Virus record (IMG/VR): IMGVR_UViG_3300025417_000092 | Location: 1 to 22,918 of that record | Length of the DNA: 22,918 nucleotides | Source: a virus | Strand: one strand, 5' to 3' | In this document: positions 4,015 through 22,840 of the stretch, in pieces | How the letters are laid out: the number at the start of each line of letters is the position of its first letter | Numbering within the stretch: the stretch's first letter is position 1 | Position numbers and translations under genes: made by a program | The notes under the pieces: generated by a model | Seen by the model: only the letters and a program-made list of their open reading frames with translations | Told to the model about the DNA's origin: nothing | The model's database searches: none

Positions 4015-4020
4015 ATTTTT

Positions 4021-4554: not shown

Positions 4555-4569
4555 ATAATTTATTACCTG

Positions 4570-5127: not shown

Positions 5128-5130
5128 AGT

Positions 5131-8100
5131 TTAATAAGTTGAATATTGACCTAATACAGTCCAAGTACCACCAATATTTAATAAACCAAAGGAGAATATA
5201 TCTATATTATTGGCTATACCGGGAGGAGCAGTGCCTGCATTGAACCAAGCAATAGTCGCAGGAGTTCCGTTTATCTGCACAGCGGTCGGTGCGTATGGAG
5301 TGCTACCCTGTACAACTATAACAGTGGCCACTGTACTTCTATTCTGTGTGAGGCTAACATTAGTAAAATTAGCAGTCCAGTTTGCTGTTGGAGCAGTGTT
5401 GTACCAAACACTGGCTGCATTTAAATTATAGTTAACCGTGCCTGTAGGGCCAGCTATTGTTCCGATAACGTCTTGAACATTGGTTGAAGTGAATGTACCG
5501 TTGACTACCAGACCTGCTGTAGTTATTAGCGAAGCACCGGTAATGGACCCACCTGAACCCAACGGAGAAGAAATTATACCACCTACATATAAATTGCCAC
5601 CAATACCTGCTCCGCCTTGCACAACCAGTGCACCTGTAGTGGTTGAAGTTGCTTGGGTATTATTGCTTATAACAAATGTAGAAGTGGTTCCAGTGGTAAC
5701 GCCGCTGGCAGCATAGTTAGCAATGGTAGCAGTGGTAATAATTTGTGCACCAGCAACATAGCTAGTATTGGCAATATATAAAGATCCACCAATACCAACT
5801 CCGCCCGCAACACGTAATGCGCCTGTAGTACTCGAATTACTGGCAGTGGCATTGGTAATGTTTATAGCATTGGTTGTTGTGCTACCTCTGTTAGATACAG
5901 TTTGGAATGTTGATGTATCCCAAATAGTTACATTACCCGAACTTGTGCTAATTGCAGTATCAGTACCTGCAATTAGTTTGGTAACCCCGTATGACCCTAG
6001 ACCCGACAATGTTAGCACATTACTACCACATATGGTGATATTGCCTGCATTGATCGTACCGCCAACATTCAAACATCCTCCGATGCCAACGCCGCCCGAT
6101 ACTTGGAAAGCACCTGTAGCGGTAGTGGTACTTGGAGTATTATTGGTTACCTTGTATGCACCGCTGCCCAGTGAATTGGCAGTTACTGCGGTTGCAACTA
6201 GAGTTGCGGTATTAAATGATTGAGCATAACCGCTAGTGGTAGCAAACAAGCTAGTAGTGGCATTTACTGCGTTTACAGAATTTGTAACCAGTGTATTGGT
6301 ATTAAAACTATTGGCGTATCCTGCAGTCACTGCATATGTAGCACTTGATGCTACACCAGTTAGTGTGCCAACAAATGTAGTAGCAGTTATAGTTCCTGCT
6401 GTATTTAAATTTCCACCTACATATAGATTACCACCTACACCTACACCGCCCGCAACAATCAATGCACCTGTAGTGGTTGATGCACTGGCAGTAGCATTGC
6501 TAATATTTATAGCATTGGTTGTTGTGCTACCCCTGTTGGTAACTGATTGAAGTGTAGAAGTTGTCCATAGGGTAACAGCTCCTGTAGTGGTATTGACTGA
6601 TGTATCAGTACCTGCTGTTAATTTAGTAACACCATAACTGCCTAACCCTGACAATGTAAGTACATTACTACCACATATAGTGATATTACCTGCATTGATA
6701 GTACCACCTACATTTAGGCAACCACTGATACCTACACCACCTGCTACTCGTAATGCACCTGTAGTTGGACTAGTACTTGCAGTAGATGTATTAACATATA
6801 CAGAACCAGTAACAGTTCCGCCAGTTATTGGTAACGCATATGCGCCAATGCTGGCAGTGGTTAACACCAAGTTTGGTCCAAGATACAGATTTATATCACT
6901 TGCGCTGTTCCAGGAAACTCCTGCTGCATTACTTAAAATTTTATCAAATCTTAAATTGTGATTATTACACGAGTTAGCTGAACCTAGACCCCACCAACCT
7001 GCCCCACCCCATGTTCCAACAACGATCGGAACACCTGCAGTGGGATTGCCCGACACAGTTTGTGCGTTTGATGCATTTACTGCGTTGGTAACCACTGTGG
7101 CTGTATTAAATGATAGAGCATATCCGCTGGTGGTAGCATAGGATGCAGTTGATGCTACACCAGTTAAGTTGCCGAAAATAGTACCACCTACATATACATT
7201 ACCACCAACACCTACTCCGCCCGACACACGAAGTGCGCCTGTGGTAGTTGATGCACTGGCAGTGGCATTGCTAATGTTTATTGAATTGGTTGTTGTACTA
7301 CCTCTATTGGTAACTGACTGTAACGTAGAAGTTGTCCAAACTGTTACATTACCTGTGGTAGTACTAACTGCTGTATCAGTGCCAGCAAATACTCCTGTAA
7401 CACCTAGGCTACTTAATCCTGATAGTGTAAGTACATTGCTACCGCAGATAGTGATATTGCCTGCGTTAATAGTACCGCCGACATTCAAACATCCTCCGAT
7501 GCCCACACCGCCGACTACAGTTAGTGCACCTGTAGCAGTGGTAGTACTAGGAGTAGAGTTTGATATTTTATAAATTCCACTACCTAATGATGTAGCAGTC
7601 ACTGCGATGGCAACCAGAGTAGAGGTATTAAAATTAGATAGTGGTACACCGTTGCTATATACAGTACCGCTGGTATAAATGTTTCCGCCAACACCTATAC
7701 CGCCAGCAATAACCAATGCACCTGTTGTGGTACTAATTGCATTTGTGGTATTGGTAATAGTGAATATATCCGGGCTGGTAACCAGTGTTTGGGTAATTGT
7801 AGTATAGGCGACAGTCAAAGATGTAGCAGTAATATTACCTGCAACAAATAAATTGCCGCCGATGCCCACCCCACCCAATACACGAAGTGCACCTGTATTA
7901 GTCGATACGCTTTGTGTGGCATTATTGATCGTCACAGCGTTGGTAGTAGTGCTACCTCTATTAGTAACTGACTGTAGTGTAGAAGTTGTCCAAACAGTTA
8001 AATTGCCCGTAGTGGCGCTGACTGCTGTATCGGTGCCGGCAAATACTCCTGTAACACCTAGACTACTTAATCCCGATAGCGTAAGTACGTTACTACCACA

Positions 8101-10017
8101 GATGGTGATATTACCTGCATTGATAGTACCACCTACATTAAGACAACCGCCTATCCCCACACCGCCTGCTACGGTCAGTGCTCCGGTGGCAGTAGTAGTA
8201 CTCGAAGTGGAGTTTGATATTTTGTAAGCACCTGTGCCCAACGATGTAGCTGTGACAGCATAGGCAACTAATGTGGCTGTATTAAATGATAGTGCATAGC
8301 CACTGGTAGTAGCAAATGAACTAGTGGCGGCAGTTTGAGCAGTTACTGCTGCAGCGACTAATGTGGCTGTATTAAATGCCAGTGCATAACCACTGGTAGT
8401 AGCGTATGATGCAGTAGAAATAACTCCTACAATGCCTCCGCCTACATATAAGTTACCACCGATACCCACTCCTCCAGCAACACGCAGCGCACCTGTTGTG
8501 GTTGATGTACTGGCAGTGGCATTATTGATGTTTATGGCATTGGTTGTTGTACTACCGCGGCCTGATACAGTTTGTAGTGTTGATGTATCCCAAATTTTAA
8601 CAACGCCTGTAGTAGTACTAATTGCGGTATCAGTTCCTGCAGATATTCCAGTAACACCGAAGTTTCCGAGACCTGTTAGTGTTAGTGCAGGACTTCCACA
8701 GATATAAACGCCTGTAGCATTAATAGTTCCACCGACATTAAGACAACCACCGATGCCTACGCCCCCTGCTACAGTTAGCGCACCAGTGGCAGTGGTAGTA
8801 CTTGGAGTGGTATTTGATATACGATAAGAGTTAGCAGCTACCAATGAGGATGCAGTAGCAGCATAGGCTACTGTAGTATTGGTATTAAATGATTGAGCAT
8901 ATCCACTAGTAGTGGCAAATGAACTGGTAGTAGCAGTTTGAGCAGTTACTGCAGATGCAACTAATGTTGCGGTATTAAATGATAGAGCATATCCGCTGGT
9001 AGTGGCATATGATGCAGTTGATACAGTACCAATTAAATTGCCTACAAACAATGTAGCAGTTACAGTGCCGCCGACAACTAATCCCCCACCGATGCCAACA
9101 CCACCCGAAACACGTAGTGCGCCTGTAGTGCTTGAAGTACTAGCAGTGGCATTGGTAATGTTTATGGCATTAGTTGTAGTACTACCTCGATTAGATATTG
9201 TTTGTAATGTTGATGTTGTCCAAACTGTTACAACACCGGTGCTGGTACTGACGGCAGTATCAGTGCCTGCCGTCAGTTTAGTAACTCCGAAACTACCTAG
9301 TCCCGATAATGTTAGTACAGGGCTTCCGCAAATATAAGCACCGGTAGCATTGATTGTACCGCCTACATTTAAACATCCGCCTACACCTACACCGCCGGCA
9401 ACTGTCAATGCACCAGTAGCAGTAGTAGTACTTGGAGTGGTATTTGATATAATATAAGAATTAGCAGCCACTAACGCCGATGCAGTAGCAGCATAGGCAA
9501 CCATGGTATTTGTATTCAACAGATTAGTTGCAGATGTTGCTATGCCTGTTAGTGTTCCTACAAAGATAGTGGCAGTAATAATCCCAGTTGAATTAATACT
9601 ACCCGCAGAAATACCACCGGTAACACTTAATGCTGTCGGTGAGGATGTGGTAATTGAGATCGGAACATTTGTAGTGGCACCGCGGCTAGTAACTGTTTGT
9701 AAGGTACTAGTAGTCCATACCTTGACATTACCTGTGCTAGTACTGACAGCAGTATCAGTGCCTGCTGTTACAGTAATTACATATCCACTACCGCCACTAC
9801 CTGCTGTTAGCACCTGTTGTCCGTTGCTATAGATTGTTCCGCCTACATTTAAACAACCAGAAATGCCCGCACCACCTAGAACAACTAATGATCCAGTTGA
9901 TGTGCTATTCGATGCTATATTGCCTATGATATGCACACTGGCAGCTGTTACATTTGTAGAACTATCTACAAATGCAATGCCGTTTATTGATAATCCGTCT
10001 TTTAATCTTTGTGTCAT
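5131..10017 (-). CDS. Giant repeat tail-fibre protein (1628 aa)
   Basis: The protein is built largely from a cassette of about 200-257 aa that appears six times in full, with an incomplete copy at the N-terminus. In each cassette TGALTVAGGVGIGGCLNVGG leads to ICGSxVLTLSGL, then AGTDTAVSTxTG, then W(T/D)TSTLQ and NRGSTTTNA, then a second TGALRVxGGVGIGG. I count 15 TGALxVxGGVGxGG-type units. An unlike insert (about 985-1075) ends in LPITGGTVTGSV, a phage fibre repeat type. The C-terminal domain (about 1495-1628) contains VIVVQGSTPYAPTAVQI and TWTVLGQ, as in other marine-phage structural proteins. The role is a long virion fibre. ATG overlaps the stop of the upstream fibre gene as ATGA. The sequence is very rich in Thr, Ser and Gly, with no signal peptide. 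Confidence 0.88.
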   Translation of the reverse strand: MTQRLKDGLSINGIAFVDSSTNVTAASVHIIGNIASNSTSTGSLVVLGGAGISGCLNVGGTIYSNGQQVLTAGSGGSGYVITVTAGTDTAVSTSTGNVKVWTTSTLQTVTSRGATTNVPISITTSSPTALSVTGGISAGSINSTGIITATIFVGTLTGIATSATNLLNTNTMVAYAATASALVAANSYIISNTTPSTTTATGALTVAGGVGVGGCLNVGGTINATGAYICGSPVLTLSGLGSFGVTKLTAGTDTAVSTSTGVVTVWTTSTLQTISNRGSTTTNAINITNATASTSSTTGALRVSGGVGIGGGLVVGGTVTATLFVGNLIGTVSTASYATTSGYALSFNTATLVASAVTAQTATTSSFATTSGYAQSFNTNTTVAYAATASSLVAANSYRISNTTPSTTTATGALTVAGGVGIGGCLNVGGTINATGVYICGSPALTLTGLGNFGVTGISAGTDTAISTTTGVVKIWDTSTLQTVSGRGSTTTNAININNATASTSTTTGALRVAGGVGIGGNLYVGGGIVGVISTASYATTSGYALAFNTATLVAAAVTAQTAATSSFATTSGYALSFNTATLVAYAVTATSLGTGAYKISNSTSSTTTATGALTVAGGVGIGGCLNVGGTINAGNITICGSNVLTLSGLSSLGVTGVFAGTDTAVSATTGNLTVWTTSTLQSVTNRGSTTTNAVTINNATQSVSTNTGALRVLGGVGIGGNLFVAGNITATSLTVAYTTITQTLVTSPDIFTITNTTNAISTTTGALVIAGGIGVGGNIYTSGTVYSNGVPLSNFNTSTLVAIAVTATSLGSGIYKISNSTPSTTTATGALTVVGGVGIGGCLNVGGTINAGNITICGSNVLTLSGLSSLGVTGVFAGTDTAVSTTTGNVTVWTTSTLQSVTNRGSTTTNSINISNATASASTTTGALRVSGGVGVGGNVYVGGTIFGNLTGVASTASYATTSGYALSFNTATVVTNAVNASNAQTVSGNPTAGVPIVVGTWGGAGWWGLGSANSCNNHNLRFDKILSNAAGVSWNSASDINLYLGPNLVLTTASIGAYALPITGGTVTGSVYVNTSTASTSPTTGALRVAGGVGISGCLNVGGTINAGNITICGSNVLTLSGLGSYGVTKLTAGTDTSVNTTTGAVTLWTTSTLQSVTNRGSTTTNAINISNATASASTTTGALIVAGGVGVGGNLYVGGNLNTAGTITATTFVGTLTGVASSATYAVTAGYANSFNTNTLVTNSVNAVNATTSLFATTSGYAQSFNTATLVATAVTANSLGSGAYKVTNNTPSTTTATGAFQVSGGVGIGGCLNVGGTINAGNITICGSNVLTLSGLGSYGVTKLIAGTDTAISTSSGNVTIWDTSTFQTVSNRGSTTTNAINITNATASNSSTTGALRVAGGVGIGGSLYIANTSYVAGAQIITTATIANYAASGVTTGTTSTFVISNNTQATSTTTGALVVQGGAGIGGNLYVGGIISSPLGSGGSITGASLITTAGLVVNGTFTSTNVQDVIGTIAGPTGTVNYNLNAASVWYNTAPTANWTANFTNVSLTQNRSTVATVIVVQGSTPYAPTAVQINGTPATIAWFNAGTAPPGIANNIDIFSFGLLNIGGTWTVLGQYSTY
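5578..9894 (-). repeat. Long tandem cassette repeats inside the giant fibre gene
   Basis: These are six full coding cassettes of about 600-770 bp plus a partial one, with AGTDT starts at residues 85, 250, 460, 660, 878, 1135 and 1350. Similarity holds at the DNA level; for example the blocks near 6013-6074, 6650-6720, 7430-7500 and 8085-8155 are nearly the same. Repeats this similar can recombine, which would change fibre length. Confidence 0.85.
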
Positions 10018-11864
10018 ATCATTCTTCTAATATTAAATGTATAAGTGCTAGCGCCTGTATTATTGGTCAAGCCGGATATTTGTAACTGAGGAGATCCTGA
10101 ACTGACACGTTGAACCTGTAAAAATATAGAACCAGTGGCTGCTACTCCGCCTGCTCTGTGTAATACAATTTCGTCAAATGCAGTTTCCGAGCCGTTACCG
10201 CTATACCAGCTCATAATACCACTATAATACATATTTGATTCACCACCGCCTTGTGTTTGGTCACTGACCAACACTTGAACAATATATGTTCCATTGGCTA
10301 ACGAGCTACCGTTTATTCCTGTATTTTGCCAGGCCTTGTTTAATGTAAGTTGAGTGCTAGTTGTATATAATTGATCTACATTTATTCCCGAACTAGGACT
10401 GAGTCCGGTATGATATAGTTGACCAACAATATTGACATTAGAGTCAAAATACGAACAACCTTGAACACCGAGGCCGCCGCGTACTGTTAAACTTTGTGTG
10501 GTGCTGGTGCTGGTACTGGCTGTACCGTTTACTGCACGAACCGATGATACAAAGGTAGGAGTACAAGAACCTTGACTAGATAATACTTGCCCTGCTGATC
10601 CTGTGCTTATAAATGATGTTACTCCCGGAGCAGATTGATAAGGGATCTGTCCGCTGATACCTCCACTGAGATTTGTTGCAGTATTAGCAACTCCTACAGA
10701 TATATTGCAGAACCCTTGCCATGCTGGTAACCCGCATACTGAAAATAATGCTGTACAGTTACCACCGATCGGTAAGAAGGTAGTTTGACCAGGCGAACTT
10801 TGGTAAGGAATATCCCCAGAAAATCCGCCCGACAGGTTAGTGGCACTGCAAGCATTGCCACTTATGTGTGCTCCGTATATAGTACCAGTGACTGATAAAT
10901 TTCCACCTACATATAAATTTTTGCCAATACCAACTCCGCCTTTGACAGAAAGAGCACCTGTGTTAGTACTTACAGCGTTTGTAACATTGGTAATTGTAAA
11001 AATATCTGGACTATTAACTAAATTTTGAGTTACAAGTGTATTCTGAACACATAGTTGGAAAGCATTGATAGTACCACCTACGTATAAATTACCGCCAATA
11101 CCCACACCACCTACAACTCGAAGTGCTCCAGAATTAGTTGATGATGCATTGGCACCGCAGTTTACCTTTAGATTTGGAGTTGATAATTGACCAGTGTTGC
11201 CTACGAAACTTAAACTTCCTGATGCGTATTCAGAATAATTTGCCCCCACACCCCTGACCATAGTAGGATAATAGGTATTAAGATCAGAATTAGTTAATGT
11301 GTTTATGTAGACTGCATTGGCAGAGGCTGCTGCACTTGGTGCAAAATTTTGAGTATTGACCCAAGTAGCTATGCAGCCGTTAGACTGTAATACATAACCA
11401 CTAGGGCCTATGTTGATAAATCCTGTTTTACAAGTAGCACATTGATATAATATGCTTCCTGGCAATCCGCCTGCAATATTGGTAGCAGTATAAGACCCGA
11501 CGCTGGCTCCGCTAGGTCCTGTAGCACCAGTTACACCGCTAGGCCCAAGTAGACCAATAGGCCCAGCAACTCCGCTAGGACCACTAACACCTCGTTGTCC
11601 ACTAGGACCGCTTGGCCCAGTTACACCAACTCCCCCGGTTAGTCCAGTGGGGCCTATTGTTCCTATACCGCTAGGACCTGAAGGACCGCTCGGGCCTGTT
11701 GCACCCGTGGGCCCTACAGATCCGCTTGCTGCTCCTTGTGTAGTTATCAATGTCTGCAACTGAGAAATTGTGATATATTTTTGAGCGCTGGCTTCGCACA
11801 CAACAATGTGTGTAGTACCTGCGCTAGGTGAAGTATCTTGCAGTAAGGGGGTAAGGACAGCCAT
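10014..11864 (-). CDS. Collagen-like / repeat tail-fibre protein (616 aa)
   Basis: The N-terminal segment (about 1-42, MAVLTPLLQDTSPS to ITISQLQTLI) resembles a phage fibre attachment domain and weakly resembles the start of the 984-aa protein. A Gly-X-Y stretch (about 48-120) is rich in GPSG and GATG. Then come three copies of a segment with an ATN(L/I)(S/A)GG start, PYQ-type centre and GxVL end (about 126, 360 and 410). Between them are two TGALxVxGGVGIG-type units (LRVVGGVGIGGNLYVGG and LSVKGGVGIGKNLYVGG). A unique C-terminal domain (about 465-616) ends STYTFNIRRMI. The protein is presumably a virion fibre; its stop overlaps the giant fibre start (ATGA), so the two are probably made together. 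An AATAAATA box lies 29 bp upstream. Confidence 0.85.
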   Translation of the reverse strand: MAVLTPLLQDTSPSAGTTHIVVCEASAQKYITISQLQTLITTQGAASGSVGPTGATGPSGPSGPSGIGTIGPTGLTGGVGVTGPSGPSGQRGVSGPSGVAGPIGLLGPSGVTGATGPSGASVGSYTATNIAGGLPGSILYQCATCKTGFINIGPSGYVLQSNGCIATWVNTQNFAPSAAASANAVYINTLTNSDLNTYYPTMVRGVGANYSEYASGSLSFVGNTGQLSTPNLKVNCGANASSTNSGALRVVGGVGIGGNLYVGGTINAFQLCVQNTLVTQNLVNSPDIFTITNVTNAVSTNTGALSVKGGVGIGKNLYVGGNLSVTGTIYGAHISGNACSATNLSGGFSGDIPYQSSPGQTTFLPIGGNCTALFSVCGLPAWQGFCNISVGVANTATNLSGGISGQIPYQSAPGVTSFISTGSAGQVLSSQGSCTPTFVSSVRAVNGTASTSTSTTQSLTVRGGLGVQGCSYFDSNVNIVGQLYHTGLSPSSGINVDQLYTTSTQLTLNKAWQNTGINGSSLANGTYIVQVLVSDQTQGGGESNMYYSGIMSWYSGNGSETAFDEIVLHRAGGVAATGSIFLQVQRVSSGSPQLQISGLTNNTGASTYTFNIRRMI

Positions 11865-11892
11865 TGGGTATTAAATATTCACTGTTATGGTG

Positions 11893-11900
11893 TATTTATT
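11893..11900 (-). promoter_or_regulatory. Late-promoter-like AATAAATA box
   Basis: The minus strand reads AATAAATAC, 7 of 8 with TATAAATA, 29 bp before the ATG at 11864. The gap also has a TAAATA on the opposite strand (about 11872), so chance occurrence in AT-rich spacers cannot be ignored. Confidence 0.5.
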
Positions 11901-11915
11901 GTTGGGCAGGATAGT

Positions 11916-14870
11916 TTAATCACCTAGCTTTTTTAATAAATTTTCTATTTGAACTTTAAGTTCATCGATTTGAACTTGTTGTTCTTTAATAGCTTGGAAT
12001 GCTACAGCCACTAATTTTTCGTAATCTAATGCTAGAGAACCGTCTTCTCTAGTTCTTACAGCCAAAGGAAATACTGCTTGTAAATCTTGAGCAATGATAC
12101 CGAAGTCTTCTTTTCTATTAAAATAATTACAAGCACCGCCTCTAGCATTAAGATATGAGTCAGTCCAGTTGTAGGTCTTACCGCCTGCTGTTTTTACAAT
12201 ACCGATAGCATCTTGAATGTCTTGTATATTTTCTTTAAATTTAGCATCCGAAGAATAAAATGCAGCTACATTGCCTGTAAAGTATCCGTATTGTGCTCCA
12301 ATATCTCCATTCACCTGCAGAGCATTACATGAGGGAGTAAATACTGAAGTAAATGCTTGATTTGCTTTGGATATGTATACACCAGCCCCAGTATTAAGCC
12401 AAATATGATCGCCACCGGCCCCTGCGTCATTAGATATACCTAGTTCAAGTACTGTTGACTCATTAGTTGAACTAGGTGCCCAATAACGAATCCACGCAGC
12501 ATCGCCACTGCCGCCGCCTGGGTTGCATGGTGCAAATTTTATACCTGTGCAACATTTGCTGCCAGCACTACCTGCGCTGACATAAAGAGTTCCACCAACA
12601 TTTAAATTGGAATATGAGTTAGTTCTATTGTTAGAGGAAACTGTTAAGTTGGCATTGCCTGTTACTTTAGTAGAACATAAAAAATATGCAACTTGGCCGC
12701 CTGTGCCTGCTAGTGTTCCCGGGCCACTTGGGCCTGATGGGCCTTGTGGGCCTTGGGCCCCCTTTGCTCCTGATGGGCCCGACGGACCTTGACCGCCCGC
12801 TGCACCTGGAGTTCCCGGAGCGCCTGCTGGTCCTGCTGGTCCTGCTGGACCTGCCGGTCCCGCTGGACCTTGACCGCCCGCTGCACCCGGAGTGCCTGGA
12901 GGCCCCGCCGGACCTGCCGGTCCTTGCCCGCCAGTTGCGCCCGGAGTTCCGGGAGCACCTTGTGCACCTTTTTGACCAGTAGCGCCGCTTGGTCCACATC
13001 CGCCTGTTGCTCCCGACGGACCTTTTAGCCCTTGAGATCCCTGTGCACCTTGTGGTCCTTGAACGCCTTGCGGTCCTTGAACTCCCTGTGGTCCTTGAAC
13101 TCCCTGAGGTCCCTGAGGCCCTGTGACTCCGCTAGCACCCGACGGACCTGACGGTCCCTGTGCACCTTGTGGTCCTTGCGCACCTTGAACGCCTTGTGGT
13201 CCCTGTATGCCCTGTGGTCCTTGGACGCCTTGCGGTCCTTGCGGTCCTTGAATGCCCTGTGGTCCCTGAACCCCTTGCGGTCCTTGAGGTCCTTGCGGCC
13301 CTTTTGGTCCCTGTGGTCCTTGGACGCCCTGAACTCCTTGAGGTCCTTGAATCCCTTGTGGTCCCTGAGGGCCAAGTGGTCCTTGTATGCCTTGTGGCCC
13401 TTGAACCCCTTGCGGTCCTTGCGGCCCCTGTGGGCCAAGTGGTCCTTGAACTCCCTGTGGTCCTTGAACTCCCTGTGGTCCCTGAACCCCTTGCGGTCCT
13501 TGGGGTCCCTGTGGCCCAAGTGGTCCTTGAACTCCCTGAGGTCCCTGAACTCCCTGTGGTCCTTGTGGGCCAAGTGGTCCTTGAATGCCTTGAGGTCCCT
13601 GTATGCCTTGAGGACCAAGTGGGCCTTTTGGTCCTTGCGGCCCTTGAACTCCTTGCGGCCCTTGAACTCCTTGCGGCCCTCGAGCATTGCCTGTGACAGT
13701 GATAGAGGTTAAATTGTTTAATCCAAAAGATAAAATACCAGTGGCATTGATAGATGCACAAGTTACAAACCAACCTTGCGGTCCTTGGACTCCTTGCGGT
13801 CCCTGAATGCCCTGTGGCCCTTGCGGTCCTTGTGGTCCCTGAATGCCCTGTGGTCCCTGAACTCCTTGCGGTCCCTGTATGCCTTGTGGTCCTTGTGGTC
13901 CCTGTATGCCCTGCGGTCCTTGAACGCCTTGTGGTCCTTGAACGCCTTGTGGACCTCTAGCGTCGCCGGTGGCATTTATTACATTTAGATTATTGAATGT
14001 AAGCTGTAGAACGCCAGATGTAGTAACTGCGGCAGCAGTAACATACCATCCTTGGGGTCCTTGAGGTCCTTGAACTCCTTGCGGACCAGTAACGCCTTGT
14101 GGACCAGTTGCTCCGGTGGGTCCTTGTATACCTTGGGGTCCCTGTGGTCCCTGAGGACCTACAATAGTTCCAACATCGACAAATCCCTGAATACTACCTG
14201 GAGTAGTAGTAGGGTTTGCATTCATAAAGATCCAAAGATGTCCGGTGGATTGAATGATAATACCGTCACCGTATTCTGGTTGCGGATCAAATGTAAGTAA
14301 ACTTACACCAGAAGTTGTTGCGGTGCTACCGATAATTCTAACGCCAACACCTTGCGGACCTTGAACTCCTTGTGGTCCCTGTGGTCCTTGAGGACCGAGT
14401 GTAGTTCCGCTGGCAGTTATATTAGATCCGTCACTCATAGTGACAGTTAGCACACCGGTGCTATTATCTACGTTAGCTGCTGAAATATGTACGCCTTCTG
14501 GCCCTTGTGGTCCTGTTGGGCCCTGAAAAGGACCAAAGTTAGTAAAACTGTTTATAGCATCAGTGGCAGTGCTTCCTGTGTAAATCCATACATCAGTAGT
14601 ATCCATGGCCACAAAGGCCTGATAGGGTAATACATCAGTAAACGATAATAGTTGAATAGCTGTACTAATTGTGCCTTGAAAGTCTACAGTAGGACCGACA
14701 GCTCCGCTAGGACCACTGGGCCCAGGAGGACCATCTGGTCCTAATGTGGCAGCAATAATATCGTTTAGAGATACCTGTTTTGTTAAAGGTGGACTATTCG
14801 ATGTATCAACAACCGGAAGTATAAGGTTATCAGTTAATGAGGCCTGTGGTAAACAAGTAATTCTGGTCAT
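11916..14870 (-). CDS. Collagen-like fibre with C-terminal peptidase S74 chaperone (984 aa)
   Basis: An N-terminal attachment segment (1-43) is followed by alternating Gly-X-Y stretches and short beta modules: 61-117, 127-158, 176-238, 275-305 and 367-397. An unbroken Gly-X-Y tract then runs from 398 to about 718, roughly 107 triplets and mostly GPQGVQ or GPQGIQ. A globular region (720-870) with [14 protein letters not shown] leads to the S74 intramolecular chaperone (about 871-984). The predicted catalytic dyad is S874 and K879 in [10 protein letters not shown], followed by [16 protein letters not shown] and a C-terminal coiled coil. S74 domains drive trimerisation and then cut themselves off before the Ser, so the mature fibre should end near residue 873. 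The start codon overlaps the upstream gene's stop (ATGA). Confidence 0.93.
12717..13679 (-). repeat. Collagen-coding minisatellite, mainly 18-bp units
   Basis: The region encodes about 107 uninterrupted Gly-X-Y triplets. The right part consists of 18-bp units coding GPQGVQ or GPQGIQ with GPL interspersed. The left part (about 12717-13010) shifts to GPAGPAG, GAPGTPG and GPSGPSG. Synonymous changes (CCT/CCC, GGT/GGC) are scattered between units, so the array is old or under exchange rather than freshly expanded. It causes long spurious open frames on both strands. Confidence 0.9.
13773..13955 (-). repeat. Second collagen-coding repeat block
   Basis: This block codes residues 306-366 of the 984-aa protein in the same 18-bp [12 protein letters not shown] style. 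It is separated from the main array by one 31-residue beta module, so the two blocks could exchange by recombination. Confidence 0.85.
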
Positions 14871-17353
14871 ATATTATTCTGTAGTGGATTATTATCGTCA
14901 AAAACCCATTCTATTCCGTCGCCGCCAAATAGATAATTGTCTGAATATATTTGATCAGTAATAGTATGTCTTGGGAATTTGATGTATTTAGCGCCACTAT
15001 TGTCTAGGCTATTAGCTACAACGAACCGATCGAATTCAAAGTTCAACATTTTAAAATCAAAACTAGAGTGCAGTATATTGTTTAAAATTCTAACTCCATT
15101 ACCCGGAGTGGCATAACACAGAGGAACAACCATTTTATAACCCGGAGGCTGCATATCGTTTTGATAGGTTGTCATATATCCGGGCAAGTATGTAGTACTA
15201 ATCGAAACATAGTGACCGTCGACTGCTATTAAACTTAATTCTAATCGCATATTGTCTACACTAGCAGGGTAATATGTTGAATTGTGATTCATATGCACAG
15301 TGGCTTTAACTCCGTTAGATGGATCAACCATAGGCACATAAACCATTTCGTAGACTACTTTGCCAGTGCTATCTTTGGCAACTGCTACATTAGGAGTCCC
15401 AAAATAAACTGCTTTATTATAGAAGTTTTGTAGAACAGCAGGCACATACTGTGATAGATTTAGTTCTTGAATTCCAAATTCGAGATACATTTTAATATCA
15501 GTACGAAGTCCAAAATTAGGATCGTCTGCCCTATAAAACATACTTGGCACAAAGATTGATGTGTCGTTGATAAAATTACTAAACAATGTTCTTGTACTTG
15601 GATTTAAGAAAGGCCTTACATAAATGTCAGTATATTCGTAAACAGATGGTAGAACAGTTAATGTAAATTCTTTTATAGAAAATGGATAAGGGTAAACTGG
15701 TCCAAGCAAATTTGGATCATCTTCGTTGGTCAACGACAATGCTAGTCCCGGTACTAGATCGTAACCGCCGTAGACACTGGCTATAGAACCACCGTCTACG
15801 TTTAAATTGGTAATAGTGAACAGAGCAGATGCACCTCCACCGTCTAAATCATAGCTGTTTACATCATAGATTGTAGCAGTGGTTCCGGCATCTATATTAT
15901 AGTCATAACTATTTGTAGAACCGCCGCCGTCAATAACAAACGCTGTAGTACTTTCATCGTAGACCGCATTTGAACCACCGGCATCTAAAACAAAATCATT
16001 ACTACTGAATAATTGTGTGCCAGTAGTGTATCCCCATCCACCGTCTAATATAATATTGTTATAAAGATAAGTTGATGTACAGGCCAATACGGCGAATGTA
16101 TAAGTTCCAGATGCTGTAGTAGATCCTATAATATCCCCACCTATAGTTAAACTAAGTCCATTTGGCAAAAGATCCCCGCCGAAATATCTGTATAGTAACG
16201 GCCATTCTGTATCTATATGTGATGCCACTACCGATAACTGACTAATTCTACCTTCTAACAATGACGTTAGTGTGCTAGTTGTTTCCCAAGTTATAGTGTC
16301 GTAATACTCGGCCATTGTAGAAATGGTAAAGGTATTTGTAGTAGAAATACTGGCACCGGATATTTTATCGTATTTGGTAGCCTTGATAACAAACTCGTAT
16401 ACTTGTTTAAAGTTGGTCTGAGTTGTAATGTAACCGTAGAGATAACCTGCATTTGGATCCAAAGTGAGACCATTTGGTATGCGTTTAAAATCTCCATCGC
16501 CTATTGAGTAGATAGAAGAATATACAATAGGACCTAATAATGGATCTGGATCATAGGCTGTTACAGGAATATAATATTTGCTATTAGAAGTTATCTCACC
16601 TAAATTTGAATCTCTTAAAAATTCCGGCGCCTGGATAGCACTTATACTAGTATAAGTTCCGGTTGAAGCATGTACCCCTGAAAAACTTCCTATATAGATA
16701 TTGCTACTGGTAGAACTAAATCCTATGATAGTATCGTCTGCTGTTAGCGTAAACGGATTAATTACAGTGATGTTAAATGTCTGTGTAGATCTAGCAGTTC
16801 CACTAACTGCATCTATACTAAAATTATATCGTTGTACTGTACCTGGGTAAATTTTTTCTGAAACAATTCCAGCAATATATCCGCTGGTACTTAATAGGTT
16901 TAATCCGTGTGGTAAAGTAGAGCCTGCAGATACATTGTAAACAATTGGTAAATTTAATGGCGATGTTGCTGTTAATCGTATAGATAATTCTTCATTATTA
17001 ATTGCAGTACCGTTGACATTGGTTGTAGTGTTAACAGCAATAAACCCAGCAGGAGTTGTCCATACCGGCGGAACTACATTGGTTATAGTAATATTAAATG
17101 TTTTATCTGCAACCTTGCCTGAAATTGAACTTCTAGCTCTTACTACAAACTTACTCGTGGTAGTATTGAGAACAACAGCAGGTGTTCCGGTAATTAGTCC
17201 GCTTGTGGACATTGATAACCCTTTGGGTAAACTTCCTGCAATAACAGTATAGTAAGAAGAATAACCTGCAGATATTTGTATGCTAGAAATTGCAGACCCG
17301 GCTGAGAATGTTCCTAGTGCACTATTATGGGTCAACCATTGTAAATCTAACAT
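14867..17353 (-). CDS. Structural protein with He_PIG/Ig-like domains (828 aa)
   Basis: Four He_PIG-type (cadherin-like Ig) signatures of the form (L/I)PxGLxL...GxI.G are visible: [17 protein letters not shown] (42-58), [16 protein letters not shown] (147-162), [16 protein letters not shown] (292-307) and [16 protein letters not shown] (396-411). A region of short DGG repeats (about 435-522) comes next. The C-terminal third (about 570-828) is aromatic-rich and non-repetitive, with [14 protein letters not shown] and FRADD-like stretches. I associate it with marine T4-like virion structural proteins but cannot name it. The likely role is a baseplate-proximal or fibre structural component. The start is ATG at 17353, 6 bp after the preceding stop, with no strong Shine-Dalgarno. 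Its stop overlaps the start of the 984-aa fibre gene. Confidence 0.8.
15788..16051 (-). repeat. Degenerate DGG coding repeats
   Basis: Six short units of the form (I/L/V/N)D(G/A)GG lie at about residues 435, 455, 473, 486, 502 and 518 of the 828-aa protein, spaced 13-20 residues apart with Tyr/Asp-rich linkers ([20 protein letters not shown]). Confidence 0.6.
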
Positions 17354-17359
17354 CTTAAA

Positions 17360-18259
17360 TTATACTCTATTAATGGTAAGGATAGATCCCTGTGAATTTA
17401 CCCCCGAATAACTCGAAGAGATATCGTTTAGTGTTAGTGTAATTGAAGCAGGCGAGTTTAATGTAAAGTTTCCAGATGCATTAATATTGGTGCCGTACAT
17501 ATTTCTACCATATCCAGCACCGCCTTGTCTGGCCATATAAATTGAAGTAGAAACACTTGCACTAACTCCGCCGCCGCTGATACTACCGCATTGTGTCACA
17601 GTAACAGTATAATCTTTACTAGGATGATCGTCTAATGCAGATACTCGAGTATCTAATACCAGCTGATAAGTGCCTGCTAAAAGTACTGGAGAAGCACTAC
17701 TAGCACCGGTAGCTACCAGCATATACACCGGGCCGTATCCTCCGAAGCCAGATTCACCTTGAGCTCCTTGGGCTCCGGTTCCTATAGCGCCTTGAGCACC
17801 AGTGGCTCCTTGTGCGCCAGTATTACCTTGGTAGCCCATTGCTCCTTGTGCGCCACCACCGCCGCTGGTTCCCGGAGTGCCTTGACTACCTTGTGCGCCT
17901 GTAACGCCCTGTGATCCTTGAGAACCTGTACTTCCTTGTGATCCCTGTGCGCCAGTATTACCTTGATTGCCTTGTGAGCCTTGTGATCCCTGACTGCCTT
18001 GTGATCCCTGCGGCCCTTGGAATCCTTGGTAACCTTGATTACCAATAACTCCCTGATGACCCAGTAATCCTTGAGCACCTTGGTAGCCTTGGTAGCCAAT
18101 GGTTCCTGTATATTGTAGTGCTTGCCAGCTAGTAACCCCGTCCCCAATTTTAAATTTCTTTGTATCGGATTCCCAACCTGGTTCGCCCTGATCCAATGTA
18201 GGGTTATTAGTTGTCCAGTTTGCAGCAGTGTCTCTTCTTAATTGTATTCTGTTAGCCAT
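17360..18259 (-). CDS. Collagen-like fibre with Mtd-type N-terminal head (299 aa)
   Basis: Residues 1-50 (MANRIQLRRDTAANW, LDQGEPGWESDT, FKIGDGVTSWQAL) match the N-terminal domain of major-tropism-determinant-like phage proteins, which acts as the virion-attachment adaptor. A Gln-rich Gly-X-Y tract (about 55-172) of GYQ, GSQ and GAQ triplets follows. The C-terminal domain (about 175-299, GPVYMLVATGASSAS onward) is beta-rich and unlike the gp53 and S74 tips of the neighbours; I do not recognise it. The role is probably a virion fibre or adhesin. The head is nearly the same as that of the next gene upstream (18285-19136), down to the DNA around the start codon. Only a weak CGAG-like Shine-Dalgarno is present. 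Confidence 0.85.
   Translation of the reverse strand: MANRIQLRRDTAANWTTNNPTLDQGEPGWESDTKKFKIGDGVTSWQALQYTGTIGYQGYQGAQGLLGHQGVIGNQGYQGFQGPQGSQGSQGSQGSQGNQGNTGAQGSQGSTGSQGSQGVTGAQGSQGTPGTSGGGGAQGAMGYQGNTGAQGATGAQGAIGTGAQGAQGESGFGGYGPVYMLVATGASSASPVLLAGTYQLVLDTRVSALDDHPSKDYTVTVTQCGSISGGGVSASVSTSIYMARQGGAGYGRNMYGTNINASGNFTLNSPASITLTLNDISSSYSGVNSQGSILTINRV
18222..18259 (-). repeat. Near-identical 5' coding repeat, copy 1
   Basis: The first codons of this gene (MANRIQLRRDTAAN) are nearly identical in DNA to 19099-19136, the start of the neighbouring paralogue. They differ at only a few positions, so the two heads come from a recent duplication or are kept alike by gene conversion. Confidence 0.75.
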
Positions 18260-18284
18260 ATTATTGCTCGTTGTTTAAATTATT

Positions 18285-19136
18285 TTAATTTCCTATAGCC
18301 ATCCAATAGAACGGTATTATTTCCCATGAAGAGACTCTACCTTCGCCTGCACCGAGCCACGCACCCGATGTTGTTGGATCAGGCCAAGATCCGCCGTTGT
18401 CACCGTAACTGGCTACTGCCCCACTTCGTTTACCGTCGGCAAACGGTGTGACTAATATTGAAAATACTCCAGTTGGAAAGGTTCTAGGCCAAGCTACATA
18501 CTGTGGTGATTGGGTTGGGTTAACTTGTCCCCACTGCATTATTAATCCGTTGGGTAGCTCTGTCCATCCGGTACCTGAAATACATCCTGTAAATCCTGCT
18601 GCACCTGGAGATCCTTGGGCACCTTGAGATCCAGTTCCTGCAGCGCCCTGAACACCTTGCGATCCCTGAGCACCTGTGGCACCGGTAGCACCAGTGGCTC
18701 CTTGATAACCTTGAGCCCCACCTTCACCGCCAGCACCACCTATGCCTGGGACTCCTTGGGCTCCGGTGATCCCTTGTGCGCCTTGAGCGCCCTGAGCACC
18801 TACAGGGCCTTGACATCCGTTTCTTCCGTTGTAGCCTTGAAATCCTTGATATCCAAATCCCTCTGCACCTTGGAATCCGCGGGGTCCTTGATAGCCCTGT
18901 GGTCCTGGAACATTACTTGGTGCACCTTGTGCCCCTTGTCCCGGTATACCTTGAAAGCCCTGTGGCCCTTGATTTCCAGGACTCATATAACCTAGGCTAC
19001 TCCATTGGCTTACACCGTCTCCGACCTTCATACGACCTGTATCTACTTCGACACCGGGCTCTCCTTGATCTAAAATAGGATTAAAGCTAGTCCAATTTGC
19101 TGCATAGTCTCTTCTTAATTGTATTCTATTAGCCAT
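18285..19136 (-). CDS. Collagen-like fibre with Mtd-type head and gp53-like tip (283 aa)
   Basis: The head (1-50, MANRIQLRRDYAANW, LDQGEPGVEVDT, MKVGDGVSQW) is the Mtd-type adaptor shared with the gene at 17360-18259. A Gly-X-Y tract (about 54-182) has several short breaks (GAPSNVPGPQ, GEGFGYQG). The C-terminal domain (about 190-283) opens TELPNGLIMQWGQ and ends IIPFYWMAIGN, the gp53-like fibre-tip signature also seen in the 147-aa protein at 241-684. The product is a likely receptor-binding short fibre. ATG is 3 bp after the upstream S74 gene stop, so coupled translation is likely. Head, shaft and tip clearly have separate histories. Confidence 0.87.
   Translation of the reverse strand: MANRIQLRRDYAANWTSFNPILDQGEPGVEVDTGRMKVGDGVSQWSSLGYMSPGNQGPQGFQGIPGQGAQGAPSNVPGPQGYQGPRGFQGAEGFGYQGFQGYNGRNGCQGPVGAQGAQGAQGITGAQGVPGIGGAGGEGGAQGYQGATGATGATGAQGSQGVQGAAGTGSQGAQGSPGAAGFTGCISGTGWTELPNGLIMQWGQVNPTQSPQYVAWPRTFPTGVFSILVTPFADGKRSGAVASYGDNGGSWPDPTTSGAWLGAGEGRVSSWEIIPFYWMAIGN
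19099..19136 (-). repeat. Near-identical 5' coding repeat, copy 2
   Basis: Partner of the copy at 18222-18259; both code the same Mtd-type head start. Confidence 0.75.
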
Positions 19137-19139
19137 ATC

Positions 19140-20039
19140 TTATTCTTCTTTTTTAGATTCTAATTGATTAACACGATCAGTTAATTCTTTAATAGCCGCA
19201 AAGGCTAGGGCAACTAATTTTTGATAGTCAACAGCTAGAGTGCCGTCGGCTTTGACCCTTACTGCTAGAGGAAATGCTGATTGAACATCTTGTGCTATTA
19301 CACCAAAATCGTTCTTTTGAATATGGTAACCGTCCTCACCGCCTTTGCCGGCAATATACTGATCCGACCAATCATAAGTCTTGCCGCCAATGGCATTGAC
19401 TATGGATAATGCGTTGGTAATATCTGCTATGTTTTCTTTAAATTTAATATCAGATGTATAATACGCGGTGACGTTTCCGTATATGTTTAGGTCAGTTCCG
19501 TTGGTATTTCCAAACCCTGCAGGAGAGCCGCTGTTGTTATATATAATTTGTCCGTTAGTGCCTGCTACTGGACCTGGCACACCTTGAGAACCTTGAAACC
19601 CGGGGGAACCTTGTGCTCCGGGGGAACCTTGATATCCTGCACTGCCTTGCGATCCCTTTTGACCAGTTAGACCGTTGCTGCCAGCTGCGCCTGGAGAACC
19701 TTGACTGCCTGAATTTCCTTGATACCCTTGATAGCCTGTAGCTCCTTGGGCTCCTTGATAGCCTATAACACCTTGACAACCTTGGGCACCCACCATGCCC
19801 TGACTACCGCTCATACCTTGAACACCTATGGCTCCCTGATTGCCTTGGGAACCATGTGCACCTTGAGGTCCGCTAGGCCCAAGTGGCCCTACTGGTCCGC
19901 TGGGACCACCTCCTGTGTAAAGGGTAGAAAGTGCGCTATTAACTTTTTCAAAGGCAACTCGAATACTGTCGCCTGTCCCATCATTAGGACCGCTGCCTGT
20001 GTTAATTAATACTTGACATAATGGGGGGTTAAAAGCCAT
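19140..20039 (-). CDS. Short collagen-like fibre with peptidase S74 chaperone (299 aa)
   Basis: The N-terminal segment (about 8-41) contains GPNDGTGDSIRVAFEKVNSA, a head type related to that of the 147-aa fibre. A Gly-X-Y tract (about 45-157) with GYQ, GSQ and GSP triplets follows. A short linker GQIIYNNSGSPAGFG leads to the S74 chaperone (about 193-299) with predicted dyad S196 and K201 (TSDIKFKENI), FGVIAQDVQSAFPLAV and a C-terminal coiled coil ending KKEE. Self-cleavage would leave a mature fibre of about 195 residues. The S74 domain is a clear paralogue of the one in the 984-aa protein. A good AGAGGT lies 6 nt before ATG; a TAAATA-core box lies 32 bp upstream. Confidence 0.92.
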   Translation of the reverse strand: MAFNPPLCQVLINTGSGPNDGTGDSIRVAFEKVNSALSTLYTGGGPSGPVGPLGPSGPQGAHGSQGNQGAIGVQGMSGSQGMVGAQGCQGVIGYQGAQGATGYQGYQGNSGSQGSPGAAGSNGLTGQKGSQGSAGYQGSPGAQGSPGFQGSQGVPGPVAGTNGQIIYNNSGSPAGFGNTNGTDLNIYGNVTAYYTSDIKFKENIADITNALSIVNAIGGKTYDWSDQYIAGKGGEDGYHIQKNDFGVIAQDVQSAFPLAVRVKADGTLAVDYQKLVALAFAAIKELTDRVNQLESKKEE

Positions 20040-20090: not shown

Positions 20091-20318
20091 TTAGTGTAGT
20101 GTTCGATTTTCTAGGTCGTGTATGTCATCGATGCCAAATAGGCTTAGAATTATCAAGACTTCTTCCGGAGGATCATCCATTAAGTGTTCTGGAATCATAA
20201 AACTCTTTAAATCCCCATCTGGTCCTAGGACAAATCCAAAATCATCGGGACCGTATTCATTTGTTGTTTCGTCGTATTCTTCAATTTCTACGACTGTTTC
20301 TACATTGTTGTTGGGCAT
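20091..20318 (-). CDS. Small acidic protein, function unknown
   Basis: 75 aa from the preferred ATG at 20318 (MPNNNVETVVEIEEYDE). An in-frame ATG nine codons upstream (20345) exists, but the internal one has CGGAG 7 nt in front of it, so I chose it. The product is strongly acidic (EIEEYDE, YGPDDFG, DDPPEE, DDIHDLE) with a short hydrophobic helix VLIILSLFG near the C-terminus. There is no Cys and no recognisable domain. It is placed between the superoxide dismutase gene and the collagen-fibre genes, 61 bp after the former. I cannot suggest a function. Confidence 0.75.
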   Translation of the reverse strand: MPNNNVETVVEIEEYDETTNEYGPDDFGFVLGPDGDLKSFMIPEHLMDDPPEEVLIILSLFGIDDIHDLENRTLH

Positions 20319-20325
20319 ACTTATT

Positions 20326-20330
20326 CTCCG
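20326..20330 (-). promoter_or_regulatory. Ribosome binding site deciding the start at 20318
   Basis: The minus strand reads CGGAG, 7 nt before the ATG at 20318 and inside the frame that would be coding if the upstream ATG at 20345 were used. This favours the shorter 75-aa product. Confidence 0.7.
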
Positions 20331-20379
20331 TTTAAAGTATAACATATTTTGTGACTATAAATTAGTCTTTCGATAACAA

Positions 20380-20931
20380 TTACACGCCCTCCAGTTTAAT
20401 ATTAATACGATTCCAATCAATGATTTTCCATTGTCCTGCTAGATATTTTTCCTTATCAGTACCAAAATCTGTCATAAAAGAGTGTTCCCACCAATCTACA
20501 AGCAACAATATATCTTGTTTAATTTCGTGATTGACGATGGTTTTGATCTTACCGTCTTTACTCAGATAAATCCAACCGCTGCCCTGTATTTTCATAGCAG
20601 CAGTTTCGAATGTTTCTTTGAATTTGTCCCAACCCTTGTAGTGTTTTTCGATAAACTCTAGTATAGCACCACTGGGAGCGTTGCCGCTTTTGTAAGGTTG
20701 GAATTGAGCAAAATAGATACTATGTAGGAAAGCACCTGCTTCATTGAAGTTATGATCGCCTTCACCTCGGTTAAAACGATCAACATAGGCTTTATAAAGT
20801 GTTCCGTAGTGGTAATCTATGGATTCTTTGCTGAGACTAGGGTCAAGGGCGCTCCTTGAATAGTCCAGTTCTATTTGAACTAGATCGCTAGGATCGCGCC
20901 CTTCGGCAATAAGTTTGATAAAATTATACAT
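20380..20931 (-). CDS. Fe/Mn-type superoxide dismutase homologue
   Basis: 183 aa, close to the usual 190-210. The four metal ligands align with E. coli SodB: H41 (IDYHYG), H70 (GAFLHS), D146 and H150 (DWWEH). GSGWIYL (117-123), YLAGQWKIIDWN and the gate Tyr Y49 (YKAYV) are also present. The enzyme would convert superoxide to peroxide and oxygen in the host cytoplasm. G66 replaces the Fe-type Gln69, and H135 (IVNHE) aligns with the His of mycobacterial-type SODs, so the metal is uncertain. The second-shell His30 position is L45 and its partner Tyr (H ligand +3) is M153. About 20 residues precede the usual start. GAGAAG lies before ATG, and a GATAAATA box lies 22 bp upstream. Confidence 0.88.
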   Translation of the reverse strand: MYNFIKLIAEGRDPSDLVQIELDYSRSALDPSLSKESIDYHYGTLYKAYVDRFNRGEGDHNFNEAGAFLHSIYFAQFQPYKSGNAPSGAILEFIEKHYKGWDKFKETFETAAMKIQGSGWIYLSKDGKIKTIVNHEIKQDILLLVDWWEHSFMTDFGTDKEKYLAGQWKIIDWNRINIKLEGV

Positions 20932-20952: not shown

Positions 20953-20960
20953 TATTTATC
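20953..20960 (-). promoter_or_regulatory. Late-promoter-like GATAAATA box
   Basis: The minus strand reads CCGATAAATATC, 7 of 8 with TATAAATA. It lies 22 bp before the superoxide dismutase ATG in the gap after the glycosyltransferase stop, so the dismutase is probably expressed late with the structural genes. Confidence 0.55.
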
Positions 20961-20968
20961 GGTAAAAA

Positions 20969-22246
20969 TTAAATCTTGAGCTCGCCTGCAAAGCGTTCCC
21001 CGCCGTCTTTAATAGCAACTAGCCACGCTACAGTCACACAACTATCCATATTCTTCATCCAATCATTAGGGAAAAATGTTTCTCTACGAAACTCTTGGAA
21101 ACGAATTGTGTGATTATCAATGAAGTTTCCTAGATAAGCATCGGTATAATATAGGAAACTATTTTCGTTCCAGTAGCTGACATGAGTAGGATCTTGGAAA
21201 GCGCCGCGACCGTCTGTGCTAGGAACTTCAATAAATGCCCACCCACCATGTGCTAGCACACGATGTATTTCGCCCATGATCTTGGTTTTGTCATGCAGAT
21301 GTTCTATGATGTGGCTGGCATTTAATACGCCTACTGAGTTATCAGGTAATGGAATACCGTTATTTAAATCAGCAACAACATTAGATCCTTCTCGTAAATC
21401 TACAGTATAATATCCAGGATAAGGATTTAATCCGCCGCCGATATCTACATTCATTAACCCTCGTAATTGCGAGTCCCTCTCTGCTAATTTACGAGCATTT
21501 TCAATAAACAACTCTCTAGTTCTTTCTTGAATCTGTGCATTGCGTTCATTTATTGAAGTATTAACACCTGTAATTCTATAGATATATAATACCTTAGGAA
21601 TGTAAAATACCTTGGTTGTTAAATAGGTACGAATACAAAGGTCGTGGTCCTCACATACAAATGCATTGTCGCTGTAACCGCCTGCCTTAAAATATGCCTC
21701 ACGACGCCACGATCTTACATGATCGGGTGCATACCAAATGTAGGAAAAACTTTGGCTGGTAGGAGGAAACGTCTTCATAGCAATTAGGTCTCGCCCTCTA
21801 AATGGATATGTATAGTGAGTCCAACCGTATTCCTTCATATAAGGAATAAATGGTTTGTTTGGATCCATATCGAACATAGCATCGTCACTGTAGACAAATC
21901 CTACTTCGTTGTCTTGATATGCTATGTTTAATTCTTCTAAACAATCCGGGGTTAATAAATCATCGTGATCAACTTCAACAAACACATCACCTGTACATTT
22001 ATCGCAGGCCATACGTTTAATCATTCCTATATTAACAATCTTGGTGCGAGTATCAAATACTTTTACTCGTGGATCGTTAAAAATAGTATCCGGAATTTCT
22101 GCAGGAGTGCACTTATTGTTGGTATAGATAATCCATTCCCAATTACCATATGTTTGTGCAACCAGGCTTTCGTAGAGTTCTACTAAAAATGGAATGTTGT
22201 TTGGATCGTGTTCGCAAGTGATGATGCTATATTTTAAATTATTCAT
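20969..22246 (-). CDS. Glycosyltransferase (GT2-like) fused to SAM methyltransferase
   Basis: 425 aa from ATG at 22246; a TTG three codons upstream is in frame, but the ATG directly follows the upstream stop (1-bp gap). Residues about 5-230 are a GT-A glycosyltransferase: YSIITCEHD, a metal-binding VDHDDLLTPD (92-101), SDDAMFD, and an acidic CEDHDLCIRTY (198-208) where the catalytic base is expected. Residues about 265-425 are a class I, Methyltransf_11-like domain: VDIGGGLNPYPGYYTVDLRE (SAM motif I and acidic strand 2), HIIEHL, EIHRVLAHGGWAFIEVP. The protein probably transfers a sugar and methylates a sugar or nearby group. The acceptor may be host surface glycan, phage DNA or virion protein; the sequence does not say. 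There is no signal peptide or membrane anchor. Confidence 0.9.
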   Translation of the reverse strand: MNNLKYSIITCEHDPNNIPFLVELYESLVAQTYGNWEWIIYTNNKCTPAEIPDTIFNDPRVKVFDTRTKIVNIGMIKRMACDKCTGDVFVEVDHDDLLTPDCLEELNIAYQDNEVGFVYSDDAMFDMDPNKPFIPYMKEYGWTHYTYPFRGRDLIAMKTFPPTSQSFSYIWYAPDHVRSWRREAYFKAGGYSDNAFVCEDHDLCIRTYLTTKVFYIPKVLYIYRITGVNTSINERNAQIQERTRELFIENARKLAERDSQLRGLMNVDIGGGLNPYPGYYTVDLREGSNVVADLNNGIPLPDNSVGVLNASHIIEHLHDKTKIMGEIHRVLAHGGWAFIEVPSTDGRGAFQDPTHVSYWNENSFLYYTDAYLGNFIDNHTIRFQEFRRETFFPNDWMKNMDSCVTVAWLVAIKDGGERFAGELKI

Positions 22247-22247
22247 A

Positions 22248-22817
22248 TTAGTCAAAGAAAAATAGTTGAACTAAACGACCGTCATAGTTAGTTTGTCCGA
22301 AGTATGTACCGGCCGAATGTATGCTCTGTGCATCCATAATAACTAATCTATTATATACATTGCCTGTGGAATCTACAATATCAAATTTAGTTGCATCTAA
22401 AAATCCGCCTTCAAATGCTTGATCAGTGCCCGGGTCACCTGCTCTTGCAGCACCTGATACTTTTGATCGATGTGTACGTGTTCCACTTTCTAGTGGAGCA
22501 TCGGGTGTAAGATAAATCATAGCTGCCCACTTTTGCAGATCATGGTGATATACTTGAGGATCGCTCGATGTGGTAATTTGGAAACATCCGTTGGGGCTAT
22601 TAGTAGGAAAATTAGTGATCTTTTCTCCCATGATGTTTTCAAATACTTCTTTTATGTTGTCGGGATGGTATGCTTCTGTTGATCTAATACCTTTGTAATA
22701 TCTTAAATCTGCTGCATAATTAACACTCAGTGCGAATCGTCTGACGCTGTGCGGATCAGAATAAAAGTTATCTACAACAAATAACTTTTTAAGATAGTTG
22801 GGATTAATTTCTAACAT
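22248..22817 (-). CDS. DUF6445-like protein, probable 2OG-Fe(II) oxygenase fold
   Basis: 189 aa from ATG at 22817. An in-frame GTG at 22826 would add three residues, but nothing resembling a Shine-Dalgarno precedes it. The C-terminal two thirds shows an oxygenase-like order: H91 and D93 in YHHDLQKWAAMIYLTPDAP, distal H167 in DAQSIHSAG, and R181 in DGRLVQLFFFD. The N-terminus (KLFVVDNFYSDPHSVRRFAL) is typical of DUF6445 proteins found in marine phages and bacteria. Activity and substrate are unknown. It is followed after 1 bp by the glycosyltransferase-methyltransferase gene, so the two are probably co-translated and may act on the same target. An ACTAAATA box lies 24 bp upstream. Confidence 0.72.
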   Translation of the reverse strand: MLEINPNYLKKLFVVDNFYSDPHSVRRFALSVNYAADLRYYKGIRSTEAYHPDNIKEVFENIMGEKITNFPTNSPNGCFQITTSSDPQVYHHDLQKWAAMIYLTPDAPLESGTRTHRSKVSGAARAGDPGTDQAFEGGFLDATKFDIVDSTGNVYNRLVIMDAQSIHSAGTYFGQTNYDGRLVQLFFFD

Positions 22818-22840
22818 GGCACTCACTTTTTATGTAGTGA

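Follow-up and report, generated by a model that had tools for sequence, protein, structure and literature searches.

Two second-shell residues of the Fe/Mn superoxide dismutases (SODs), His30 and Tyr166, are coupled by a low-barrier hydrogen bond. In human MnSOD, k1 is 1.5 for the wild type, approximately 0.005 for H30V, 0.2 for Y166F and 0.1 for the double mutant H30N/Y166F (PMC9208312). The latter (1PM9) carries Asn and Phe by design in an otherwise normal enzyme and shows low activity. Regarding the subfamilies of this enzyme, SodFM4 is defined by an HXXXHH motif that has lost its C-terminal His, and most of its members have a C-terminal water-coordinating His (PMC10172142).

Virus-encoded SODs have also been described. 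Megavirus chilensis has a SOD for which a solved structure is cited in PMC9270025, although it is a Cu,Zn enzyme of a eukaryotic virus, with unrelated fold and metals. Phage SODs have been reported among the stress genes of freshwater phages (PMC6802176) and of Microcystis viruses (PMC12542629). Moreover, the BFVD database labels a protein of an uncultured Caudovirales phage, 52% identical to the one analysed here, as "superoxide dismutase", so the existence of such phage SODs is not new. Nevertheless, a literature search found no description of the clade presented below or of its residue pair in phages.

The SOD gene and its product

The window, that is, the whole stretch of DNA analysed (22,918 nucleotides), comes from a virus contig of 22.9 kb. 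The features of the SOD gene and its surroundings are displayed in Table 1. The open reading frame is intact and begins with ATG, and its product matches Sod_Fe_C (3.5e-20) and Sod_Fe_N (2.1e-9), both above the curated cut-off (PF00081/PF02777). Its AlphaFold model (mean pLDDT of 90.7) aligns with Fe/MnSODs over 165-174 residues with Z values of 22-23. The ORF is an Fe/Mn-family SOD under selection, since comparison with a 94% identical relative (L001) reveals purifying selection across the whole gene (dN = 0.032, dS = 0.36, dN/dS of approximately 0.09).

An earlier note on this DNA had described an intact metal site with a changed second shell, and its reading of the residues was correct. The four ligands, three His and one Asp, are all present (H41, H70, D146 and H150), the His30 site is occupied by L45 (four residues after the first ligand) and the Tyr166 site by M153 (three residues after the last one), and the metal-tuning Gln is replaced by the mycobacterial-type His arrangement, with G66 and H135. 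The gateway Tyr (Y49) is intact, as is H135, the metal-tuning His. In the HXXXHH motif, Tyr (Y46) has replaced the second His, and the N-terminal alpha-hairpin is shortened, with 21 residues from Y49 to H70 versus 39 in the canonical SOD L131.

Table 1. Positions of the SOD gene, selected codons and neighbouring features in the window.
Feature	Position	Strand	Basis or remark
Collagen-like tail fibre with S74 endosialidase chaperone	19140..20039	-	Start of the tail-fibre cluster
84-aa acidic protein, function unknown	20091..20345	-	Next gene downstream; kept in the nearest relatives
Fe/Mn superoxide dismutase of the phage clade, 183 aa	20380..20931 (including the stop codon)	-	Pfam, fold, homologues
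M153 codon (Tyr166 site)	20473..20475	-	Most variable residue of the clade
H150 codon (last metal ligand, final residue of WWEH)	20482..20484	-	
H135 codon (C-terminal water-coordinating His)	20527..20529	-	Invariant in phage-type SODs
L45 codon (His30 site)	20797..20799	-	Same residue in all 150 phage SODs
Motif of the T4 late promoter type, GATAAATA, shortly upstream of the SOD gene	20953..20960	-	Motif counts in viral loci
Glycosyltransferase family 2 fused to methyltransferase	20969..22255	-	Immediate upstream neighbour, common to the closest relatives
DUF6445 / phrog_1644 protein	22248..22826	-	Upstream neighbour in the closest relatives

In the subclade of the window, the glycosyltransferase-methyltransferase gene sits between the DUF6445 gene and the SOD gene. 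Positions 3532-20039 hold a series of tail fibre genes of collagen-like, S74-chaperone and repeat-rich type, whose products measure 984, 616, 1628 and 828 aa; the last of these proteins has no match in Pfam or PHROGs. The search for tRNA genes and Rfam families in the window gave no result.

TAAATA is the motif of T4-type late promoters. It is present at most 100 bases upstream of the SOD gene in 92 of 140 viral loci, versus a background of 5.2%. The minus strand of the window has eight TAAATA sites that precede gene starts by no more than 70 bases, including those at 20958, 22846, 11898 and 2313.

A clade of phage SODs

A single-sequence scan of IMG/VR gave 51 loci, and a profile scan raised the number of contigs encoding relatives to at least 584; the same database scanned with the Vibrio phage SOD returned no matches. 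Conservation was analysed in 150 distinct full-length phage proteins (an extra row of the table, L055, is a bacterial SOD). Ten residues do not change in any of them: H41, L45, Y49, H70, W120, H135, D146, W148, E149 and H150. Residue 46 is Tyr, Ala or, in a few cases, His. The earlier note had proposed that finding the canonical pair in close phage homologues would make this protein a local oddity. No such homologue occurs among the 150, where Leu is always present at position 45 and Tyr never at position 153, so the change belongs to the clade and not to this locus. Matches labelled as phage with less than 31% identity (e.g. L054 and L055) carry the canonical pair and have bacterial gene neighbours, and were taken as bacterial DNA.

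The phage SODs form one clade in a tree of 91 rows built without the trait columns (SH-aLRT of 100, branch length of 1.66). The SODs of cultured jumbo phages fall in it, namely those of Wroclawvirus (PA5oct and MIJ3, 41% identical to the window SOD) and Vibrio phage 2.275.O (40%), also with Leu at 45 and without Tyr at 153. Their genes have ClpS and bS21 genes nearby, together with QueD in MIJ3, but these are other phage lineages and, unlike in the window, there are no tail-fibre neighbours. Most Wroclawvirus records annotate the SOD as hypothetical. Several contigs that carry clade SODs measure 230-363 kb. PHROGs has no family for the window SOD, nor does it include the clade.

In cells, 84,980 genomes were scanned with the conserved motifs of the clade as query, and the best 80 of 210 matches included a single phage-type copy, L111, in a Methylophilaceae MAG. 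It was rejected as a cellular carrier because its contig encodes a T4-like terminase and a tail sheath and is, therefore, phage DNA. Hence, as far as this search reaches, the clade belongs to viruses alone, being essentially absent from cells and confined to phages of aquatic bacteria. The presence of this T4-like phage contig (G001:C2, 89,521 bases) inside a Methylophilaceae MAG hints at the host; the N-terminal part of its SOD is not recognisable.

Some members are longer proteins in which Pfam finds only the SOD domain. In L208, it lies within an ORF of 1105 aa whose upstream part, by eye, looks like an ADP-ribosyltransferase-type fold. L244 and L249 are 388-aa ORFs with a C-terminal extension that resembles, also by eye, an SGNH hydrolase (GDS and GTND motifs).

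Joint loss of His30 and Tyr166

The two substitutions are paired, as the earlier note had suggested. Both residues are kept in 33 rows of the 91-row alignment and both are lost in 58, with no row keeping one alone, and the tree needs two independent joint changes and no single loss. The independent-pairs test had only two pairs available, so statistical significance was out of reach. This pattern fits the known coupling between His30 and Tyr166, as seen in the hydrogen bond and in the kinetics of the mutants. No replacement His or Tyr that is conserved and unique to the clade was recognised by sequence, except Tyr122, which is Trp in cells.

On the other hand, the loss is not a rebuilding specific to phages, as had been proposed. 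All the cellular SODs in the best 80 of 210 matches of the motif scan retain both residues except L111, but a wider search revealed double losses in archaeal, proteobacterial (L394/L399) and ChrC-type SODs, all of which group with the Aquifex enzyme 1COJ on the SodFM4-like side. The archaeal ones belong to the phylum of G002 (a Woesearchaeota MAG genome, DPANN-type), for example L366 and L367, with HxxxLY and EHAYM. The ChrC-type SODs, found on plasmids (pMOL28, for example) and in genomes of Pseudomonadota, have Asn at site 30 and mostly His at site 166; the plasmid ones (L386-L388) present Ala at the gateway Tyr site. Some cellular SodFM4-like SODs carry Leu and Met at the two sites, as in the window. 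In L366 and L367 the Leu is aligned without a gap; in many other archaeal and proteobacterial double-loss SODs (L357, L368, L394 and similar) the stretch from the first ligand to the gateway Tyr is a residue shorter, and a gap is needed to align their Leu.

The co-adaptation of Leu and Met put forward in the earlier note was not borne out. Residue 153 in the 150 phage SODs is Ala in 106, Val in 15, Ser in 7, Gln in 6 and Met in only 4, with others in the rest, and it is the position most often changed between close relatives (10 of 26 disjoint close pairs). Since L45 is invariant and residue 153 is the fastest-changing, Leu and Met do not form a co-adapted pair. The block of eight that varies most in these 26 pairs is 151-158 (33 of 230 differences, the median block having 10), and 20 of the 44 nucleotide differences between the window SOD and L001 fall within gene bases 451-500. 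Synonymous changes are raised in the block too, which makes the exchange of short tracts likely. Both synonymous and non-synonymous changes are raised along the hypervariable residues 151-167 (window 20431-20481), and the preceding WEH is invariant. This variability could be due to tract exchange or to diversifying selection.

Relationship with described subfamilies

The phage clade shares with SodFM4, and with the Aquifex pyrophilus enzyme 1COJ, the C-terminal His (H135 in 150 of 150), an HXXXHH motif without its second His and the Leu immediately before the second ligand His (GAxLHxxYF). Some SodFM4 members have lost the His30/Tyr166 pair too, and carry Leu and Met in its place. 1COJ and its archaeal and plasmid relatives would be SodFM4 according to our own assignment from the motif. 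However, the phage SODs lack the long N-terminal hairpin, are encoded only by viruses and form a separate clade outside the SodFM4-like rows (99), in a tree where their branch is long and the published SodFM4 set is absent; their placement is thus uncertain. Given the shortened hairpin, the usual SodFM4-type homotetramer seems unlikely.

The best PDB profile match of the clade is a SodFM2 (1.1e-34), and the fold, ligands and gateway Tyr are those of E. coli SodB and the Bacteroides fragilis enzyme (8AVL/8AVM). Nevertheless, the N-terminal water-coordinating Gln of SodFM2 is absent, with G66/A67 at its site, the His30/Tyr166 pair is lost, and the segment preceding the second ligand His is shorter by one residue. 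SodFM3, the mycobacterial type, combines a complete HXXXHH motif with a C-terminal His, and here the motif is HXXXLY. Regarding 1PM9, the same two second-shell sites are changed as in the window SOD, but the phage protein acquired its change naturally and has Leu at 45.

Gene neighbourhood in the viral loci

The neighbourhood was counted in 213 viral loci, some of them overlapping. A T4 gp9/10-like tail protein is encoded near the SOD in 142 of them, the UV-repair gene UvdE in 138, an ErpA-type gene in 126 and QueD in 97. Therefore, a dismutase close to late tail genes, which the earlier note had considered unusual, is common in this clade. UvdE is upstream of the SOD in the relatives with 94% identity to the window SOD, and the UvdE of the window itself is predicted to lie just beyond its edge.

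Fe-S genes are also found beside the SOD. The ErpA of L013 is above the curated NCBIfam cut-off. In L250 (4612-8545) the SOD is followed directly by SufB and SufC (above cut-offs), a SufD-like protein and a cysteine desulphurase (SufS), and SufC-like ATPases are located 3' of the SOD in six further loci, among which one contig is represented twice. L111 (5341-10174) carries SufB, SufC, a split SufS, SufE, a SUF-associated protein, an A-type carrier and a glutaredoxin beside the SOD. No Fe-S gene adjoins the SOD in the window's own subclade, and the window has none.

Proposed function and alternative explanations

The reading that we consider fairly probable is a late-expressed, probably Fe-preferring SOD that would work without the His30-Tyr166' relay and protect phage-supported Fe-S metabolism. 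The gene would probably be transcribed late from its T4-like late promoter. Fe, or Fe and Mn, would be bound by the four ligands, with H135 tuning the metal-bound water and Y49 as the gateway, and the protein would keep the usual Glu149-His150' dimer bridge, since E149 and H150 are invariant in the 150 phage SODs as in the known bridge. The preference for Fe is probable because of the C-terminal His, as 9 of 13 tested enzymes with this feature prefer Fe (PMC10172142). Against it, the X_D-2 residue is Leu, and the clear Fe markers at this position are Thr and Val (PMC10172142). Dismutation would proceed without the second-shell proton relay, and the removal of superoxide in the infected cell would allow exposed Fe-S clusters and other targets to survive until lysis, alongside the UV repair by UvdE. 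These clusters may be partly supported by the phage, ErpA or SUF genes being adjacent to the SOD in many of these phages, although synteny conserved by descent argues only weakly for a shared function.

A slow or repurposed SOD fold, where the metal site serves structure or iron handling, or the protein acts as a scaffold, and dismutation is weak, is rather unlikely, though the likeliest of the alternatives. PAP4 and PAP9, Fe-SOD subunits of the plastid RNA polymerase that we take to be comparable repurposed cases, have chains among the PDB matches, and fusions of the SOD domain exist in the clade (L208, L244 and L249). The main ground for doubting catalysis would be the near-stop of human MnSOD by H30V (PMC9208312), which means that catalysis could be severely impaired by an aliphatic side chain at this site. 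However, the gateway Tyr, both Trp of the active site (W120 and W148), H135 and Glu149 are invariant or nearly so, which is more than a mere scaffold would need.

That the loss of the pair is tied to a different quaternary state, as a monomer or a new dimer, appears improbable. The shortened N-terminal hairpin would agree with it, as hairpin architecture separates dimeric from tetrameric SODs, and so would the position of the most variable block, after the last ligand and near the canonical dimer interface. But Glu149-His150, the core of the dimer bridge, does not change, and SodFM4-like SODs with a long hairpin have lost the pair as well. Local decay of an acquired host gene, a reading already disfavoured in the earlier note, is hardly credible, having nothing in its favour beyond the two substitutions and being contradicted by the clade-wide conservation, the dN/dS of approximately 0.09 and the intact frame.

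Beyond the protective, relay-free SOD proposed above, a wider and more tentative reading, to which we give somewhat less than an even chance, is that the clade is a sixth, virus-only subfamily of Fe/Mn SODs with relay-free turnover, acting as the protective arm of a UvdE-SOD-ErpA or UvdE-SOD-SufBCDS module for Fe-S clusters and UV repair.

The clade is abundant in aquatic phages, absent from PHROGs and linked by its neighbourhood to phage-encoded Fe-S assembly. The mutants of human MnSOD established His30/Tyr166' as a coupled proton-transfer pair, but they are silent on whether evolution can dispense with it. Natural families have done without the pair at least twice, always losing both residues, and this makes the role of the relay directly testable.
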